From contig NZ_CP140772.1 in assembly GCF_037893185.1 (NCBI RefSeq), positions 6,750,001-6,814,000 of the forward strand: a stretch of DNA of 64,000 nucleotides. The letters run 5' to 3'. A model generated the notes under the pieces. That model saw only the letters and a program-made list of their open reading frames with translations, had not been told where the DNA came from and made no database searches. This document shows positions 5,596-64,000 of this stretch, one piece after another (the stretch's first letter is position 1; every line of letters starts with the position of its first letter). The DNA comes from Chitinophaga sp. 180180018-3. GTDB lineage: Bacteria; Bacteroidota; Bacteroidia; Chitinophagales; Chitinophagaceae. The position numbers were made by a program, and so were the translations under genes.

Positions 5596-6813
5596 CTATG
5601 TGGCAAATAGCAAAAGCGGAGAATCTTTAGCTTTATACTGATTGAACCTGTCTAAAAGGCTTTTTTCGGCCGCCGTGATAAAGGCTTTAAGGTTCATATA
5701 AGTCATCATATGTAGCCTGACCATACTAACCAGATTAGAAAAGGACCATTTGCATTTGTAGTTAGAGCTGATTACTTTAAGAATAAGATCAGCAATCATT
5801 ACACACCAGATTTGTATTTTAATAGCATTGGGGCTATCTCCCAGAAAGTATCTAAGGGGATAATTTTGCTTTAGCCGCTTAAATAATAATTCAATCTGCC
5901 ACCTTTTATGATAACAATCAGCTATAGTAGCAGGTTTGAGATGAAAATCATTAGTTATAAATTCAAAGATATGGCCGCTTTTTTTGTCCTTATAAGTAAT
6001 AAGTCGGGCCTTTACCTTAGCATTTTTTTTATTATGATTATGTCCTAACTCAATTTCCCGGTCAGCTAAAACCCCCTTGTTTACCTGCGACTCACTGATG
6101 GGACGATCTTCGATAATTGTATGAATGGAACTATCGATGTTACGGGTTATCCATGTAATGGCTCCTTCATCCAAAGTGTTATAAGCACTATAGTCTCTGT
6201 ATCCTTTATCAAATACCAGGATTGACCCGGCAGGTAACACCACTTTTTTAAGAAAGGAAACATCAGCTTTGGCAGCAGCGCTGAATCTAACCATACAGGG
6301 TACATCCTGATCGCTTCTCATTAAAGTGTGTACTTTAATACCGCCTTTGCGTCTTCCATCCATATCAGATTTACCTGCCCCTTTTAATATCTGCTGAAAC
6401 AGGCTGATAGTGGTAGAATCAAACAGATAAAGTTTTGATGCCAGTTTTGCCGGCCGGCTGTCCGGTAAAAATTGTCCATACCGCTTTAATAGTTCCAGGT
6501 AGATGGCTTCAAAAACTTTTGTACCTCTACGTATACTGGCATCAGAAATAGTACTCCTTCTGGGCGGATGGGTGATGCCCAGATGGGCTAGTCGGTGCTC
6601 CCAGGCCAGCATGCCTGTAGTAACCTCCCGCAAGGAGCTACACTGATTAATTATACTGTAAAGTAGCGTCACCAGATGATCATAGGTCTTGAATCGCTTA
6701 CAGCAACGATCTGCCTGATAGTGAATGGCTAATTTGTTCACCAGCGGTCTGGGAATAAAAGAAAGTAACTGACTAAATATCGGCTGTCCGGTAAAATATA
6801 TACCTTTACTCAT
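5596..6813 (-). CDS. IS4-family DDE transposase
   Basis: Catalyses cut-and-paste movement of the surrounding insertion sequence, 405 aa. The C-terminal part carries the IS4 YREK signature, YHKRWQIELLFKRLKQN (Y-2-R-3-E-6-K). DDE acidic residues are expected in FDSTTISLF (first D) and VFDKGYRDY (second D). The N-terminal ~75 residues (GQPIFSQLLSFIP and following) match the domain commonly seen at the start of this transposase group. The ATG at 6813 is the only sensible start. The reading frame is open throughout, so the element may be active. Two copies of a 16-nt sequence related to the inverted repeat lie inside the gene (see findings). Confidence 0.93.
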   Translation of the reverse strand: MSKGIYFTGQPIFSQLLSFIPRPLVNKLAIHYQADRCCKRFKTYDHLVTLLYSIINQCSSLREVTTGMLAWEHRLAHLGITHPPRRSTISDASIRRGTKVFEAIYLELLKRYGQFLPDSRPAKLASKLYLFDSTTISLFQQILKGAGKSDMDGRRKGGIKVHTLMRSDQDVPCMVRFSAAAKADVSFLKKVVLPAGSILVFDKGYRDYSAYNTLDEGAITWITRNIDSSIHTIIEDRPISESQVNKGVLADREIELGHNHNKKNAKVKARLITYKDKKSGHIFEFITNDFHLKPATIADCYHKRWQIELLFKRLKQNYPLRYFLGDSPNAIKIQIWCVMIADLILKVISSNYKCKWSFSNLVSMVRLHMMTYMNLKAFITAAEKSLLDRFNQYKAKDSPLLLFAT

Positions 6814-10182: not shown

Positions 10183-10647
10183 ATGAGTGCACCACACATC
10201 CATATACTCTATATTGATGATGAGATACATAATCTGAATGCCTTCAAGGCTTCGTTCAGGAGAATGTATACTGTAGTAACAGCCTCGTCTGCAGAAGAAG
10301 CAGAAAAACTGCTGGCAGAACAGGAGTTTCACATCATTATCTCTGATCAGCGGATGCCCAAAACAACAGGGATAGAGTTTTTTGAGTCAATACTCGAAAA
10401 GTATCCGGATCCGATTCGTATGCTGCTGACAGGCTATGCCGATATTAACGCAGTAGTAGATGCCATTAATAAAGGGCAGGTCTACAAATACTTCTCTAAA
10501 CCGTGGAATGAAGAGGAGTTGAAACACAACATTGATAAGGCTTACGAGGTATATGCCCTTCGTAAGGAAAACAAAGAACTTACTGCCAAACTGCTGGATG
10601 TAAACCAGAAGCTGGAGTTTCTGGTACGGCAAAAGCTGATTTCCTGA
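10183..10647 (+). CDS. Stand-alone response regulator (receiver plus helical tail)
   Basis: Two-component receiver protein, 154 aa, with no DNA-binding output domain. Key residues: acidic pocket D12-D13, phosphoacceptor D55 (IIISDQRMP), T83 (MLLTG) and K106 (YFSKPW). After residue ~120 a charged helix (ALRKENKELTAKLLDVNQKL) probably forms a coiled coil. Output must come from protein-protein contact. No histidine kinase is adjacent, but the first 103 residues align without gaps to the regulator at 63692, with about 58% identity counted by hand. That paralogue is linked to a 7TMR-DISM kinase, so the two may share a partner or pathway. Confidence 0.9.
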   Translation: MSAPHIHILYIDDEIHNLNAFKASFRRMYTVVTASSAEEAEKLLAEQEFHIIISDQRMPKTTGIEFFESILEKYPDPIRMLLTGYADINAVVDAINKGQVYKYFSKPWNEEELKHNIDKAYEVYALRKENKELTAKLLDVNQKLEFLVRQKLIS

Positions 10648-58444: not shown

Positions 58445-59167
58445 CTATACAGCTGCGTTGTAGCGCTTTTCCACTTCATCCCAATTCACTACATTCCAGA
58501 AAGCATCAATGTATTCAGGCCGCTTGTTCTGATGTTTCAGATAGTAAGCGTGTTCCCATACATCCAATGCCAGGATAGGCGCTCCCTTATCTTTCACAAT
58601 ATTATGCATAAGCGGATTGTCCTGGTTGGGCGTATTTATGATAGCCAGCTTTTTCTCCGGAGTTACAATCAGCCATGCCCATCCGGAACCGAATACAGTT
58701 TTTGCGGCATCATTGAACTTTGTCTGAAAAGCTTCCCAGCTTCCAAAATTCTTATTGATCGCCGCTTTCAGTTTGTCGGAAGGCGTTTTTTTGGCAGGCG
58801 ACAACAATGTCCAGAACAATGAGTGGTTGTAGTGGCCACCTCCATTATTGCGAACGGCCTTGTCTTTATCAGTAACCTTACGCATGATCTCCTCCAGGGT
58901 AAGTCCGGCGAAGCTGCCGATATTATCATTCAGATTTTTGACATAAGCTGCGTGGTGCTTATCGTGGTGGATTTCCATTGTGAGTTTGTCGATATGAGGT
59001 TCCAGCGCCTCATATCCATAGGGCAGTGGGGGTAATACAAAGGGAGCCTTAGGATCTGCAAATAAAGGCTCTCCGGATACGGAAGATGCAGCAAGGCCGC
59101 TTAATGGTCCGCTCAAAATGGCGGCACCGGCCAAACTGGTAAGCTTGAGAAATTCTCTCTTATCCAT
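58445..59167 (-). CDS. Superoxide dismutase (Fe/Mn family), probably Mn-type and exported
   Basis: Converts superoxide to H2O2 and O2. The protein is 240 aa, about 35 longer than cytoplasmic enzymes because of an N-terminal leader (KREFLKLTSLAGAAILSGPL) resembling a Tat signal in which the first Arg is Lys. Metal ligands are in the MEIHHDKHHAAYV helix, GGGHYNHSLFW (His), and ALDVWEHAYY (Asp and His). GGHxNHSLFW and PNQDNPLM are the Mn-type versions of segments that differ in Fe-SOD. An exported location is inferred; the tatA gene is in the same window. Confidence 0.93.
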   Translation of the reverse strand: MDKREFLKLTSLAGAAILSGPLSGLAASSVSGEPLFADPKAPFVLPPLPYGYEALEPHIDKLTMEIHHDKHHAAYVKNLNDNIGSFAGLTLEEIMRKVTDKDKAVRNNGGGHYNHSLFWTLLSPAKKTPSDKLKAAINKNFGSWEAFQTKFNDAAKTVFGSGWAWLIVTPEKKLAIINTPNQDNPLMHNIVKDKGAPILALDVWEHAYYLKHQNKRPEYIDAFWNVVNWDEVEKRYNAAV

Positions 59168-59589
59168 ATTGATATTTTTTAAATGTATTATAGCGTAATA
59201 AAGATCGCAGTTAGGAAGAAAAGGGCCTCAAATATTAAACCAATCTCACTGGTGGGAAGAGACGAAAAGTAATATTAAAAGTAAGATAAAAGTATAAAAT
59301 CGGGAATTTAATATCAAAATAAAGGAAAACTTTTAGGATGTTTTCATATTAAATTACTATTTTACCTTACATTCATATCATGATTACAATTTCATTGTAA
59401 TTAACAATGTGATTACCATACATATTTATCCCGGGCCGGCAGGCTTAGCCTGTTCCTTAACCTGCCAAGTTCGCCAACATTAACTGAGTACATTTAAATT
59501 TTTATATAAGCAAAGAGTTTAGGAGCAACGGGGATTGCTTTACATAACGAGCATACATTCCCTGTAACAATTCTGATAAAGCAGGACAC
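59168..59589. other. Intergenic region between sod and the ThiF operon
   Basis: 422 nt between divergent genes, rich in A/T runs and small repeats of AATTACTATTTT type. No gene. Near-consensus TACATTTA boxes occur on both strands (plus: about 59489-59496; minus: upstream of sod at 59179-59186), which could drive the two flanking transcripts. Confidence 0.45.
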
Positions 59590-60687
59590 ATGATACAAGA
59601 GTACCTCAGGAAACAACAGGATGGGAGCAATGACTACAGACCTGTTTTCTATGATTTGAAAAAAGAGAATGAACACCAGGCTTTTGAAGCCCTTCTGAAG
59701 ACCCATCCGCACATTCGCATTAATGATCATTTGTTTTCCCAGTTGAGAGAGCTGATGAAAATCAGGAATCCTTCTAAGCGCCTGACTCCGGAAGAATATG
59801 AGGAGCAGGTAAAGGCTTATCTGGGCAACACTCCTATGGAGCAATTCGGTGTATGGGTATATTATCCCTGGAACCAGCAGGTTGTTCACCTGGTGGATGA
59901 AGCTGAATTTATCGAACTGCGCACCAGCCGGAACCAGCTAAAACTCACAGCAGATGAAATAGCGGTGCTATCGAAGAAAAAAATAGGTATCGTTGGCTTA
60001 TCTGTTGGCCAGGCCATCGCATTAACGATCGTTATGGAGCGGCTGTGCGGAGAAATCAGACTGGCTGATTTCGACAAACTGGAGCTTACCAATATGAACC
60101 GCATCCGGGCCGGTCTGCATTACATACAGGTCCCCAAAGTTGTTATTGCTGCCCGTGAAATAGCGGAACTCGATCCTTTCATTAAAGTGAAGATCTTCCT
60201 CGATGGCATGACTGAAGCCAACATGGATGAATTTTTTATTGATGGAGGCAACCTCGACATTTTCATTGAAGAATGTGATGGAGTGGACATTAAGATATTA
60301 AGCCGTATCAAGGCCAAAGAATTGAAAATACCAGTCATTATGGAAATGAACGACCGGGGCATGCTGGATATTGAGCGGTTCGATCTCGAACCAAACCGGC
60401 CTTTGCTGCACGGATTAATACCGGAGGTTGATATCTCTACCCTGAAAGGACTGACAGATGCAGAGAAGCTCCCTATCTTCGGTCCGATGCTTTCATTGGA
60501 GAATGCATCTCCCAGATTTAAGCTATCAATGGGGCAAATCGGCAAAACCATTACTACCTGGCCTCAGCTGGCATCATCTGTGGCGCTGGGAGGTGCTATG
60601 GTTGCCGATACTTGTCGCCGTATCGCCCTGGGACAGCTAAAAAGCTCCGGCAGGTATTATGTTGATTTTGAGCAGTTGATTGTTTAA
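59590..60687 (+). CDS. ThiF/E1-like adenylyltransferase family protein
   Basis: 365 aa. Residues ~125-300 match the ThiF/UBA Rossmann fold: nucleotide-binding GIVGLSVGQ (133-141), LADFDKLELTNMNRIRAG (the D-x-D..N..R motif of E1 enzymes that activate a C-terminal carboxylate as an adenylate) and IEECDGVDIKILSRI. No CxxC zinc sites and no clear catalytic cysteine after the fold, so it may adenylate without forming a thioester, as in some peptide- or amino-acid-modifying E1-like enzymes. The N-terminal ~120 residues are family-specific. First gene of an operon with a GNAT-like enzyme, a 7TMR-DISM kinase and a response regulator. Substrate unknown. Confidence 0.87.
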   Translation: MIQEYLRKQQDGSNDYRPVFYDLKKENEHQAFEALLKTHPHIRINDHLFSQLRELMKIRNPSKRLTPEEYEEQVKAYLGNTPMEQFGVWVYYPWNQQVVHLVDEAEFIELRTSRNQLKLTADEIAVLSKKKIGIVGLSVGQAIALTIVMERLCGEIRLADFDKLELTNMNRIRAGLHYIQVPKVVIAAREIAELDPFIKVKIFLDGMTEANMDEFFIDGGNLDIFIEECDGVDIKILSRIKAKELKIPVIMEMNDRGMLDIERFDLEPNRPLLHGLIPEVDISTLKGLTDAEKLPIFGPMLSLENASPRFKLSMGQIGKTITTWPQLASSVALGGAMVADTCRRIALGQLKSSGRYYVDFEQLIV

Positions 60688-60725
60688 CGTACTTATGCCT
60701 AATATAAGCGCTATTCCGCAATGTC

Positions 60726-61427
60726 ATGATTAATGTAAGGGTATTTAGGGCTCCGGATGACCCTGAGGCTTGTTTGAGATTCTATAACGGACATCTCAGG
60801 TTGCTGGAAATTTATTTCGGTATAGCACAGGTTACGTCAGGTAACGCAGACTGGATGCAACATGAAAACACGGTGGTGATCATTGTGGAGGACGATACCC
60901 GTACCAAAACATATGGAGGCGCACGTGTACAATTGGCAGACGGCAAATTGCCCCTGCCAATTGAGACGGCTATTGGTAAATACGATCCAAAAATATATGA
61001 CGTAGTGAAGCCGGGCAGCAGTGCAGAGCTGTGTGCAATGTGGAACTCAAAAGAAGTAGCCGGAATGGGAATAGGCAGCCAGGTACTCGCCCGCGTAGGT
61101 GTTGTACTGGCCAGTCAGCTCCCGATACAGAATTATCACGTGCTGTGCGCACCAATAACTACCCGGGTAGGAAAACGCGTTGGCTATGTTATCGATGAAT
61201 CACTGGGCAACAAAGGAACCTTCTTTTATCCTAAAGACGACTTCCTGGCTACTGCCATGATTATCACTGACTGCAATAACCTGGAACATGCCGATCCCGC
61301 GGAAAAGCTGCTGATAGCTGACCTGCGCGCCAATCCCGAGCAGACCAAAATCGAAGTAGGTCCGAAAGGAAGTTATGAAGTAACATACAGCCTGAAGATC
61401 CCCACACGCACACCAACTATCCTGTAG
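60726..61427 (+). CDS. GNAT/acyl-transferase-like protein
   Basis: 233-aa cytoplasmic protein, 38 nt after the ThiF gene. The segment EVAGMGIGSQVLARVGVVLA resembles acetyl-CoA-binding motif A of the GNAT superfamily, preceded by the strand SSAELCAMWNSK and followed by YHVLCAPITTRVGKRVGYVI. The layout also resembles acyl-homoserine-lactone or N-acyl-amino-acid synthases, which share this fold. I infer an acyltransferase; neither acyl donor nor acceptor can be read. No signal peptide. It stands between the ThiF and kinase genes in the same operon. Confidence 0.68.
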   Translation: MINVRVFRAPDDPEACLRFYNGHLRLLEIYFGIAQVTSGNADWMQHENTVVIIVEDDTRTKTYGGARVQLADGKLPLPIETAIGKYDPKIYDVVKPGSSAELCAMWNSKEVAGMGIGSQVLARVGVVLASQLPIQNYHVLCAPITTRVGKRVGYVIDESLGNKGTFFYPKDDFLATAMIITDCNNLEHADPAEKLLIADLRANPEQTKIEVGPKGSYEVTYSLKIPTRTPTIL

Positions 61428-61512
61428 CCCGGAAACCACCTTCGATGATTATAAAAAATAATCATAAATTCAGGCCTTATAACTAATCTTGTCCAGAACT
61501 AATCTAGTCCAA

Positions 61513-63672
61513 ATGTTGTCGAAGACTATTGTTTTATGGTCGATCCTTACCTGCCTATTCTTGCTGCCTTTAACAGCCATAACAGCCCAACCTGTTATTT
61601 ATAAGAACAGCGGGAACCTGATGCAGATTGGCAGCCATCTTGAACTTTATACCGACAAAGACAATAAACTGAGTATTGACTCCGTGATGCACAAGCCTTT
61701 TGTGCATTCCACCCAGGATGTTCCGAACCTGCAGATCACTCCTTACACCCAGTGGGCCAGGTTTCAGATCAATAATCAATCGGCCACCCACCTCTTACGG
61801 CTGGAAGTAGAATACCCTATCATCGACGATATTACGCTATACGAAATCTTGCCCGATGGAAAAATAAAGAGTACCCGTCTGGGTGAATTCACCGCTTACC
61901 GCAACCGGGGTTATGATCATCAGAACTATCAGTTTGCCCTGGATATCCCTATAGGGGAAACGAGGCTGTTCTATCTGCGGGTTAAAGCCGGCGAACAGCT
62001 ACAGCTGCCGGTTTATCTTGGTACACCGGAAACTATCTACGAAAAAAATAATAAGCGGGAACTAATGTTTGGGATATACGTTGGCGTTATCCTGGCCATG
62101 GCCTGTTATAATCTGTTTATTTCTATCTCTACCCGTGATAACAGTTACCTGATATACGTTAGTTACATCATTTGCGTAGGTATGACTCAGATAACGCTGC
62201 AGGGATACTCGTTCCGTTTTCTCTATCCCAACAGTCCCTGGCTCGCCATGCATGCCACCGTACTGGTACCGATATTAAATGGGCTGACGGCCGTCACCTT
62301 TATTCAGTATTTCCTTTCCACCAAAGTGAATTTTCCACTGGGTCATAAACTGCTGAATATAGTACTGGCGCTTTATATATTATGCTTTATTCCTACGTTC
62401 CTCGATAAATATGATTATGCACAGATCCTGGTGCAGATAGATGCCTTCCTCGCTTCTGTCATGGCCTTTGTGGTAGCCTGGCGTATCAGTATGAAGGGCA
62501 TAAGTGCCGCCCGCTTTTTCCTGCTGGCCTGGTCTATCTTTCTGATCAGCATCTTCATATTTGTGTTGCGCAACTTCAACGTACTGCCGTACAATAACTT
62601 TACCTACTATGCTCTCCAGATAGGCTCGGGAATAGAAGTACTGCTCCTGTCGTTTGCGCTGGCTCATAAGATCAACGTATTCAAGGCGGAGAAAGAGGAA
62701 TCCCAGCGCATGGCACTGGCAGCGTCGCAGGAAAATGAACGGTTGGTACGCGAACAGAATATCATATTGGAAGCCAAGGTAAAAGACCGCACGGAAGACC
62801 TCCAGGCAACAAACCTCGAACTGAATAATGCGCTCCACAATTTGAAAGAAGCACAGTCGCAGCTGGTGGAAAAAGAGAAAATGGCGTCACTCGGTCAGCT
62901 CACGGCCGGTATCGCGCATGAAATCAACAACCCGATCAACTTCGTTACATCTAATATCAAACCACTTAAGCTGGATATTGCCGATCTGCAGGAGCTGCTG
63001 AACCGGTACGATGGCCTGCAAACCAGCCAGGATATCCCGAAAGCGCTGACAGAAATCCAGCAGTTCAAACGAGAGATCGATATCCACTATATTCATGAAG
63101 AAATCAGCTCCCTGATCAAAGGGATCGAGGATGGAGCTACCCGTACCGCCGAGATTGTAAAAGGTTTACGCACCTTCAGCCGCCTCGACGAAAGTGAAGC
63201 CAAGTCGATAGATATCCACGAAGGCCTGGACTCCACGCTGGTGCTGCTCCGGAACAGCATCCCATCCTATGTAAATATCTCCAAAGAGTATGGCAGTTTG
63301 CCGAAGATAGAATGCTACGCCGGAAAGATCAACCAGGTATTCATGAATATCTTCTCCAACGCCCTCAATGCGATCAAATCAAAGAAGGAACATCACAACG
63401 AATTCATCTCCATAAAAACTGAATTACAATCCCAATTCGCAGTGATTACTATCAAAGACAGCGGGATCGGGATGTCGGAGTCCGTGAAAGAAAAGATCTT
63501 TGATCCGTTCTTTACTACCAAGGATGTAGGCGAAGGAACCGGGTTGGGGTTATCTATCGTATTCAGTATCATAGAGAAGCATAAAGGTAAAATTATAGTG
63601 AATTCAGCCCCGGGAGAAGGAGCAGAATTTATTATATATTTACCGCTCGATATATCTAATCATTTATCGTAA
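61513..63672 (+). CDS. 7TMR-DISM sensor histidine kinase
   Basis: 719 aa from the ATG at 61513 (MLSKTIVLWSILTCLFLLPL), which opens a signal peptide; a TTG at 61489 would add eight residues. Residues ~30-170 are the periplasmic DISMED2-type ligand-binding domain, a jellyroll related to carbohydrate-binding modules. Seven transmembrane helices span ~176-385, then a coiled coil (~385-455), HisKA with H469 (MASLGQLTAGIAHEINNP), and an ATPase domain with N box (NIFSNALNAIKSK), G1 (DSGIGM), F box (FDPFFTTK) and G2 (GEGTGLGLSIV). The response regulator begins 19 nt later. Likely senses a small extracellular molecule; which one is unknown. Confidence 0.93.
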   Translation: MLSKTIVLWSILTCLFLLPLTAITAQPVIYKNSGNLMQIGSHLELYTDKDNKLSIDSVMHKPFVHSTQDVPNLQITPYTQWARFQINNQSATHLLRLEVEYPIIDDITLYEILPDGKIKSTRLGEFTAYRNRGYDHQNYQFALDIPIGETRLFYLRVKAGEQLQLPVYLGTPETIYEKNNKRELMFGIYVGVILAMACYNLFISISTRDNSYLIYVSYIICVGMTQITLQGYSFRFLYPNSPWLAMHATVLVPILNGLTAVTFIQYFLSTKVNFPLGHKLLNIVLALYILCFIPTFLDKYDYAQILVQIDAFLASVMAFVVAWRISMKGISAARFFLLAWSIFLISIFIFVLRNFNVLPYNNFTYYALQIGSGIEVLLLSFALAHKINVFKAEKEESQRMALAASQENERLVREQNIILEAKVKDRTEDLQATNLELNNALHNLKEAQSQLVEKEKMASLGQLTAGIAHEINNPINFVTSNIKPLKLDIADLQELLNRYDGLQTSQDIPKALTEIQQFKREIDIHYIHEEISSLIKGIEDGATRTAEIVKGLRTFSRLDESEAKSIDIHEGLDSTLVLLRNSIPSYVNISKEYGSLPKIECYAGKINQVFMNIFSNALNAIKSKKEHHNEFISIKTELQSQFAVITIKDSGIGMSESVKEKIFDPFFTTKDVGEGTGLGLSIVFSIIEKHKGKIIVNSAPGEGAEFIIYLPLDISNHLS

Positions 63673-63691
63673 ATACCTATCAGGCCTTTCA

Positions 63692-64000
63692 ATGAAAGAA
63701 AACCGTATCAGAATATTATACATAGATGATGAAGTTCATAACCTGAACGCGTTCCGGGCCGGGTTCCGCAGAAGTTATGAAATCTACACCGCCAATTCAG
63801 CACAGGAAGGAAAACAGCTGCTGAAAGAGATATCGGTGCATATCATTATTGCAGACCAAAAAATGCCGGTATCGACCGGCGTGGAGTTCTTTAACGAAAT
63901 TAAAGACGTACTCCCGGATCCTGTCAGAATCCTCCTCACCGGCTATACAGATGTAGAAGATATCATAGATGCCATCAACAAAGGGCATATCTACTCCTAT
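63692..64000 (+). CDS. Response regulator, receiver domain (partial, runs off window)
   Basis: 103 codons are visible. The receiver domain has D12-D13, phosphoacceptor D55 (IIIADQKMP) and T83 (ILLTG); the frame is still open at the window end, inside the last receiver helix region. It lies 19 nt after the 7TMR-DISM kinase gene and is its obvious partner. About 58% identical by hand count to the stand-alone regulator at 10183, without gaps. Whether an output domain follows is not visible. Confidence 0.9.
   Translation, partial: MKENRIRILYIDDEVHNLNAFRAGFRRSYEIYTANSAQEGKQLLKEISVHIIIADQKMPVSTGVEFFNEIKDVLPDPVRILLTGYTDVEDIIDAINKGHIYSY

Follow-up and report, generated by a model that had tools for sequence, protein, structure and literature searches.

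We analyzed a stretch of 64,000 nucleotides (nt) from Chitinophaga sp. 180180018-3 (contig NZ_CP140772.1, positions 6,750,001 to 6,814,000 of the forward strand), referred to here as the window; the host genome is 8.13 Mb in a single contig. At the 3' end of the window lies an operon that encodes, in this order, an E1/ThiF-type enzyme (hereafter E1), a GNAT-like protein, a membrane sensor kinase, a receiver-kinase protein, and a lone receiver, and that extends beyond the window. The window end cuts gene four, whose whole product is a receiver followed by a HisKA/HATPase part, and gene five, encoding a lone receiver of 147 amino acids (aa), overlaps the 3' end of gene four. An initial annotation, made from the letters of the window, had described the first four genes as one operon; their coordinates, plus-strand orientation, and gaps all agree with the positions of the open reading frames (ORFs) (Table 1), and sequence comparisons support the operon as a gene set conserved across Bacteroidota. 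The kinase more likely starts at ATG 61513 than at TTG 61489, which would give a product of 727 aa.

Enzymes and signaling proteins of the operon

E1 matched ThiF in Pfam (9e-13) and the Rv1355c family NF005901 in NCBIfam with 465.9 bits, just short of the curated cut-off of 476 bits; the match spans positions 4-339 of the 722-position profile and leaves its second half uncovered. In G116, G081, and G083, which represent three further families of the order, the E1 gene encodes 772-797 aa, and the fused relative from G116 (P0003), which carries a nitroreductase-type domain behind the ThiF part, scored 812 bits. The window E1 thus ends after the ThiF part, and the C-terminal flavin-dependent oxidase domain is absent. 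Residues N168, N170, R171, K183, and D230 (window numbering) are invariant in 170 aligned E1 rows, and the ATP site is intact. D230, the Asp of the ECD motif, is probably the counterpart of TrzS D217, whose change to Ala stopped cyclization. The structure model of E1 has a predicted local distance difference test score (pLDDT) of 89.5; its residues 104-365 match the folds of AclA, ThiF, MoeB, and MccB, and the nearest solved chains by sequence are TcdA, UBA5, and MoeB. E1 is therefore the cyclase half of the Rv1355c/TrzS family and belongs with the oxazolone-forming TrzS/OxzB/TyzB group rather than with MccB. The earlier view of E1 as a carboxylate-activating enzyme stands, and the family match now gives it a more definite neighborhood. 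Two other arrangements of the family were encountered. L132:4025-7042 encodes a single 1006-aa protein with E1, oxidase, and GNAT in a row, the whole pathway naturally fused, in which the GNAT end was recognized by eye and length, not by Pfam. A Streptomyces plasmid carries, at L242:4917-6715, an oxidase-free ThiF gene from this family, flanked by a MerR regulator and an unrelated GNAT gene; no kinase is found among its annotated neighbors, and the adjoining GNAT showed no real match to the operon GNAT family (hhalign, 27 columns).

The GNAT of the window had no Pfam match above cut-off, and Acetyltransf_1 was matched by 9 of 68 aligned relatives at E <= 0.01. Searches of the relatives against solved structures by sequence gave nothing useful. 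The structure comparison proposed in the initial annotation was carried out. The model (pLDDT 94.2) has FeeM, MesI, RpaI, and BjaI among its best Foldseek fold matches, and the match to FeeM and the acyl-homoserine-lactone (AHL) synthases covers most of the protein at an identity of 8-15%. The consensus of the 68 relatives contains AGxGIGS, which we take to be the acyl-coenzyme A (CoA)-binding loop. A FeeM/LuxI-type fold and an acyl-CoA site, the two features by which membership in this group was judged, are thus predicted for the protein from model and consensus, and the suggested resemblance to AHL or N-acyl-amino-acid synthases is upheld by the predicted fold (FeeM and the CoA-dependent AHL synthases). 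As an identity, AHL synthase was rejected, since no autoinducer-synthase Pfam match was obtained with the window GNAT (E <= 1) or with the 68 members (E <= 0.01). Compared with TrzA-like proteins, the GNAT gave 16.8 and 11.3 bits by profile and an hhalign E of 4e-4 (probability 35%, 174 columns). At L136:7088-11062, the E1-oxidase gene has a different GNAT gene on each side.

The kinase matched 7TMR-DISM_7TM (2e-48), DISMED2 (2e-27), and HATPase_c in Pfam, with HisKA below cut-off, and gene four matched Response_reg. The phospho-acceptor His is residue 477 in the 727-aa TTG reading, and the H box is present in all 76 order-level kinases of at least 650 aa; the kinase is intact, as judged from these residues. 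The motifs sought were likewise present in 69 of 69 clustered receiver-kinases and 70 of 70 receivers. No full-length paralogue of the kinase was found in the window genome, where the next match (67.8 bits) covers the kinase part only. The operon receiver subfamily has two members in this genome, the one of the operon and a 154-aa lone receiver far upstream (Table 1). The latter, present in all 72 same-genus genomes examined, is the counterpart of a short receiver that lies near the operon on the opposite strand in 64 of 80 named loci. A short-receiver match was obtained in all 77 operon carriers of the order, where it may be the operon's own receiver-kinase, and in 3 of 42 non-carriers, so the short receiver is a good but not exclusive companion. 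The lone receivers, such as L117:7350-7820 and that of the window, share a strongly conserved tail like NxQLEFMLRQKLLS. A 405-aa frame at window positions 5596-6813, which we presume to be transposase-like from its look, lies 3.4 kb ahead of the lone receiver.

Table 1. Genes of the operon and the distant lone receiver, in window positions
Feature	Position	Strand	Remarks
E1/ThiF-type adenylating cyclase (predicted)	59590..60687	+	365 aa; ThiF half of the Rv1355c/TrzS family, without flavin-oxidase half
FeeM/LuxI-fold GNAT, predicted N-acyl amino acid synthase	60726..61427	+	233 aa; 38-nt gap after E1
7TMR-DISM sensor histidine kinase	61513..63672	+	DISMED2 extracellular domain, seven-transmembrane (7TM) part, HisKA, HATPase; 85-nt gap after GNAT
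Receiver + histidine-kinase protein (gene four)	63692..64000, on to window-equivalent 64789	+	365 aa whole; 19-nt gap after kinase
Lone receiver	10183..10647	+	154 aa; 203.9 bits (operon receiver-kinase 160, next 47); 49 kb from operon

Conservation of the gene set in Bacteroidota

The co-occurrence of the genes, which the initial annotation had proposed to check, was followed at three levels, and the genes proved to be regular neighbors in relatives. In an order-level sample of 119 genomes, the window's own included, GNAT was present in 77, and the same 77 had an E1 match above 350 bits; six further genomes had a ThiF match below 29 bits and no GNAT. Among the 77 carriers are all 72 genomes examined of the 79 from the same genus. 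A simple script was used to call ORFs, and a longer antisense frame hid GNAT in three loci (L054, L107, and L115); all 77 loci were therefore recounted by tblastn. GNAT was found beside E1 on the same strand in all 77. The recount also gave the kinase in 76 loci, a receiver-kinase match likewise in 76, and the lone receiver in 74; the missing genes fall at contig ends (the contig of L041 stops within the kinase).

In a draw of 395 genomes from the phylum, 11 had an E1 match above 130 bits, and all 11 had GNAT, the kinase, and a receiver-kinase match. Scoring covered two candidates per genome, and the remaining matches, none above 58 bits, were assigned to oxidase-like or other ThiF proteins. 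The third set, the 80 named loci, comprises the best 80 of 126 matches to an E1-oxidase query from operon-bearing genomes; it is therefore not a random sample, and the 395-genome draw is less biased. A same-strand GNAT was found in 74 of the 80 loci, the other six being three contig ends, the L132 fusion, and L134 and L140, which lack it. The kinase lies downstream in 72; of the eight misses, six are contig ends, two of which retain part of the kinase, and the others are again L134 and L140. A receiver-kinase match followed in 66 of the 72 kinase-bearing loci, with three of the misses at contig ends; the match lengths are 340-400 aa in 54 of the 66, shorter in five, and longer in seven. The records of all but one of the 80 loci are titled as Bacteroidota, the exception being a Blastocatellia record without the module. 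In this record, L140:1720-5153, E1-oxidase is overlapped by a longer, different GNAT, and no two-component module is present; at L134, a PlsC-type acyltransferase lies upstream.

As a control, the next most common neighbor family (frames of at least 80 aa) occurs in 8 of the 80 loci. The gene set is conserved well beyond its flanking genes. The order of E1 and GNAT varies (46 versus 27 of 74 loci, plus one with GNAT on both sides), and distance correlations between the genes gave r of 0.63 to 0.82 over 67 loci.

Promoter signals were set aside as evidence. TAnnTTTG, which we take to be the Bacteroidota-type -7 box, was found within 420 nt upstream in only 10 of the 77 loci, the window not among them; for sigma-70-like sites, 9 were observed versus 14.5 in shuffles; and conservation was not found for a perfect palindrome at window position 59383, of which a looser form occurs in 1 of 77 loci. 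A stem-loop of 11 pairs lies 150 nt 3' of the gene-five stop (L002 7344-7368, window-equivalent 65343-65367); it is suggestive only, the scan having given 10 sites in total versus 6.8 +/- 3.2 in shuffles. Adjoining the operon and divergent from it, positions 58445-59167 of the window encode a superoxide dismutase of the iron/manganese type whose start resembles a signal peptide; members of its cluster occur in 69 of the 72 genus loci, and none occurs in the five loci from other families.

The missing oxidase half and a proposed signaling circuit

A single oxidase-domain query of the 79 genus genomes gave three weak matches of 21-25 bits, none of them in the window genome. We considered a separate oxidase standing in for the missing half; these results argue against a close relative of that domain but say nothing against an oxidase of unrelated type. 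In a quick tree built from 100 E1 domains, with neither bootstrap nor outgroup root, the presence of the oxidase changes at least six times, a count of changes of state rather than of losses, and the oxidase-free L229 sits within a well-supported oxidase-bearing group. In one neighboring family, the enzyme was found at E <= 1e-30 in 69 of 151 genomes; as read from the list, 36 of the 69 are whole, one is split, 31 lack the oxidase, and one is cut by a contig end. At G523:C1:4143387-4145653, the E1 and oxidase parts lie in two frames, possibly an oxidase loss under way or else an assembly error. The GNAT and kinase module were kept in all six whole oxidase-free loci of other genera (L229-L234). 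Because the state of the oxidase varies while GNAT and the kinase module persist, the oxidase looks dispensable and the rest of the set does not.

The saturated oxazolone is described as the end point of TrzS at low oxygen and in the R540A variant (PMC12856293). Since the oxidase half is missing, the product expected in this genus is a saturated oxazolone or the N-acyl amino acid formed from it by hydrolysis. Saturated azlactones easily lose their configuration and hydrolyze. Saturated N-acyl derivatives of Tyr and Phe are reported from an Olivibacter strain, which makes them at D:L ratios of 1:16, 1:1.7, and 1.6:1 (PMC8433624), a mixture that would fit the azlactone route.

Because the operon repeats the gene order of the phc operon of Ralstonia, with GNAT and E1 in the place of the synthase, we suggest that it may be a self-contained, Phc-like small-molecule signaling circuit whose signal would be an N-acyl amino acid or a saturated oxazolone; we give this proposal an even chance, its substrates, product, ligand, export, and sensing being inferred. 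From its fold and family, GNAT would join acyl-CoA and an amino acid, probably an aromatic one, to give an N-acyl amino acid. E1, given its TrzS/TyzB family and intact ATP site, would adenylate the carboxylate of this compound and close the oxazolone (azlactone) ring. Desaturation by the flavin oxidase would be expected as a third step in many Bacteroidota; it cannot proceed by that route here. As the gene order suggests, the 7TM kinase would then sense the product outside the cell and relay phosphate to both the receiver-kinase and the lone receivers. A DNA-binding regulator follows in at least two related loci: in L125 and L176, the gene 3' of the receiver-kinase encodes a receiver with a LuxR/NarL-type DNA-binding domain, and the relay there therefore likely ends in transcription. 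A broader form of the proposal, to which we give somewhat less than an even chance, is that Bacteroidota run a widespread quorum-like circuit in which a product of the oxazolone pathway is the signal, the 7TMR-DISM kinase is its dedicated receptor, and the presence or absence of the oxidase sets the dialect of a lineage. Oxidase-free lineages would then use a saturated, racemizing, mildly acylating azlactone or its D/L N-acyl amino acid.

Several points weigh against the signaling circuit. The likeness of GNAT to TrzA-like proteins is weak, neither receiver of the window's lineage has a DNA-binding domain, and the DISMED2 extracellular domain is better known for sugar-like ligands. The module is incomplete in some loci: L129, L166, and L189 have no same-strand receiver-kinase after the kinase despite about 5 kb of room, and two of the 80 loci (L134 and L140) have the fused enzyme without the kinase module. 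The D/L mixture of Olivibacter could stem from the work-up, and saturated N-acyl amino acids are also made by a Massilia strain described as having neither ThiF nor nitroreductase genes (PMC12479983), so these compounds alone do not require E1. Actinobacterial tryptazolones are reported to be mostly cell-associated, with N-acyl tryptophans in the supernatant (PMC12856293). Finally, the core metabolome of 25 Chitinophaga strains is reported to consist of seven metabolites; four have been identified, all of them other lipids (PMC8433624). Although all 72 genus genomes examined carry the operon, these four include no N-acyl tyrosine or oxazolone. Methanolic extracts are described for that metabolome (PMC8433624), and methanol is reported to break oxazolones (PMC12856293).

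The main alternative, which we consider less likely but the strongest of the competitors, is that the N-acyl amino acid or oxazolone acts elsewhere, as an antimicrobial, envelope, or stress lipid, and that the kinase times its synthesis by sensing an external cue, for instance a glycan or stress. The DISMED2 domain of the kinase and the superoxide dismutase gene that accompanies the operon in most genus loci (69 of 72) agree with it, as do the N-acyl tyrosines with community effects in Stieleria (PMC12479983) and the stress-linked oxazolone production discussed in PMC12856293. However, no exporter or protection gene travels with the set (next most common neighbor, 8 of 80 loci; frames of at least 80 aa), the receivers next to the kinase lack a DNA-binding domain in most of the lineages covered, unlike those of a simple biosynthesis switch, and the layout equals that of phc, a proven synthase-receptor operon. 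E1 might also act on another substrate (a peptide, carrier protein, or nucleobase; cf. MccB, PaaA, and TcdA), with GNAT acylating something other than a free amino acid. This we regard as improbable: although the fold is common to all E1-like enzymes, the solved chains nearest by sequence are TcdA, UBA5, and MoeB, and GNAT stays below every Pfam cut-off, E1 is similar to the Rv1355c family over profile positions 4-339, it occurs naturally fused to the oxidase and to GNAT, the best Foldseek fold matches of GNAT are FeeM and the AHL synthases, and no small peptide gene is a conserved neighbor among the listed frames of at least 80 aa. The remaining reading, in which descent alone made the genes neighbors and the enzymes share no function with the kinase module, is very improbable. 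The Bacteroidota titles of 79 of the 80 loci, given that related species inherit neighbors, and the distance correlations (r of 0.63 to 0.82) are also expected from common descent, but the flanking genes turn over almost completely while the set stays, the order of E1 and GNAT flips without their separation, and the set persists where the oxidase is gone and is found in unrelated genomic settings.

Significance and comparison with known systems

The physiological role of oxazolones is called a major unresolved question by the authors of the tryptazolone synthesis study (PMC12856293). With enzymes of the same family and a private sensor kinase and relay in one operon in many Bacteroidota, a signaling role becomes directly testable. 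Chitinophaga is a culturable soil genus, and we know of no LuxI-type quorum-sensing operon in Bacteroidota. If the signaling circuit is true, its product would be a candidate cell-cell signal for Bacteroidota and the kinase would be the first receptor for molecules of the oxazolone class. The analysis also explains why, in some genomes, a protein whose annotation derives from a mycobacterial one is represented by its cyclase half only.

Studied members of the TrzS family form N-acyl oxazolones together with an N-acyltransferase (PMC12856293), and TyzACB and OxzAB are reported to give the tyrosine and phenylalanine analogues of tryptazolone (PMC12856293, PMC10404671); the chemistry has been described from Proteobacteria and mycolic-acid bacteria (PMC12856293, PMC10404671). 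As in TrzAS, TyzACB, and OxzAB (Mycobacterium, Rhodococcus, and Pseudoalteromonas), the ThiF-like cyclase gene of the operon adjoins an acyltransferase gene, the adjacent GNAT gene providing the neighbor by which the oxazolone pathway is recognized, and many Bacteroidota relatives share the fused oxidase. Unlike in those systems, the oxidase half is missing from the window genus and GNAT is only distantly similar to TrzA-like proteins. The operon also has a dedicated two-component module, whereas TrzAS is reported beside cyclic-di-GMP genes (PMC12856293), and a GGDEF gene also adjoins two Rhodococcus plasmid copies. A resemblance of oxazolones to signals has been pointed out in PMC12856293.

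In the phc quorum-sensing operon of Ralstonia, the genes are described as coding first for a signal synthase and then for a membrane sensor kinase, a soluble protein that combines receiver and kinase domains, and a final receiver protein; the last two are reported to have no DNA-binding domains (PMC8578825, PMC11960443). Gene order and domain layout are the same in phcBSRQ and in the operon. GNAT and E1 occupy the place of the methyltransferase PhcB, and no counterpart of PhcA was identified. The initial annotation knew of no described system with this gene set, which holds in part: the chemistry (PMC12856293, PMC10404671) and the layout (phcBSRQ, PMC8578825) are each known, and no report joining oxazolone enzymes with such a signaling module was found in open-access papers, among the matches listed. 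As far as the literature found goes, the combination thus appears to be new.

Other systems are more distant. FeeM, BjaI, RpaI, and MesI have their fold in common with GNAT and differ from it by the low identity (8-15%) and by the autoinducer-synthase Pfam match that it lacks. TcdA, which cyclizes threonylcarbamoyl adenosine in tRNA, has the E1-like domain in common (39.7 bits over 135 profile positions only) and carries out an ATP-dependent intramolecular ring closure, as proposed for E1; its substrate is tRNA. In the RpfF/RpfC/RpfG diffusible-signal-factor system, a synthase gene likewise stands beside its own sensor kinase and regulator, but the enzyme chemistry is another, the kinase is a hybrid kinase, and the output is through HD-GYP.

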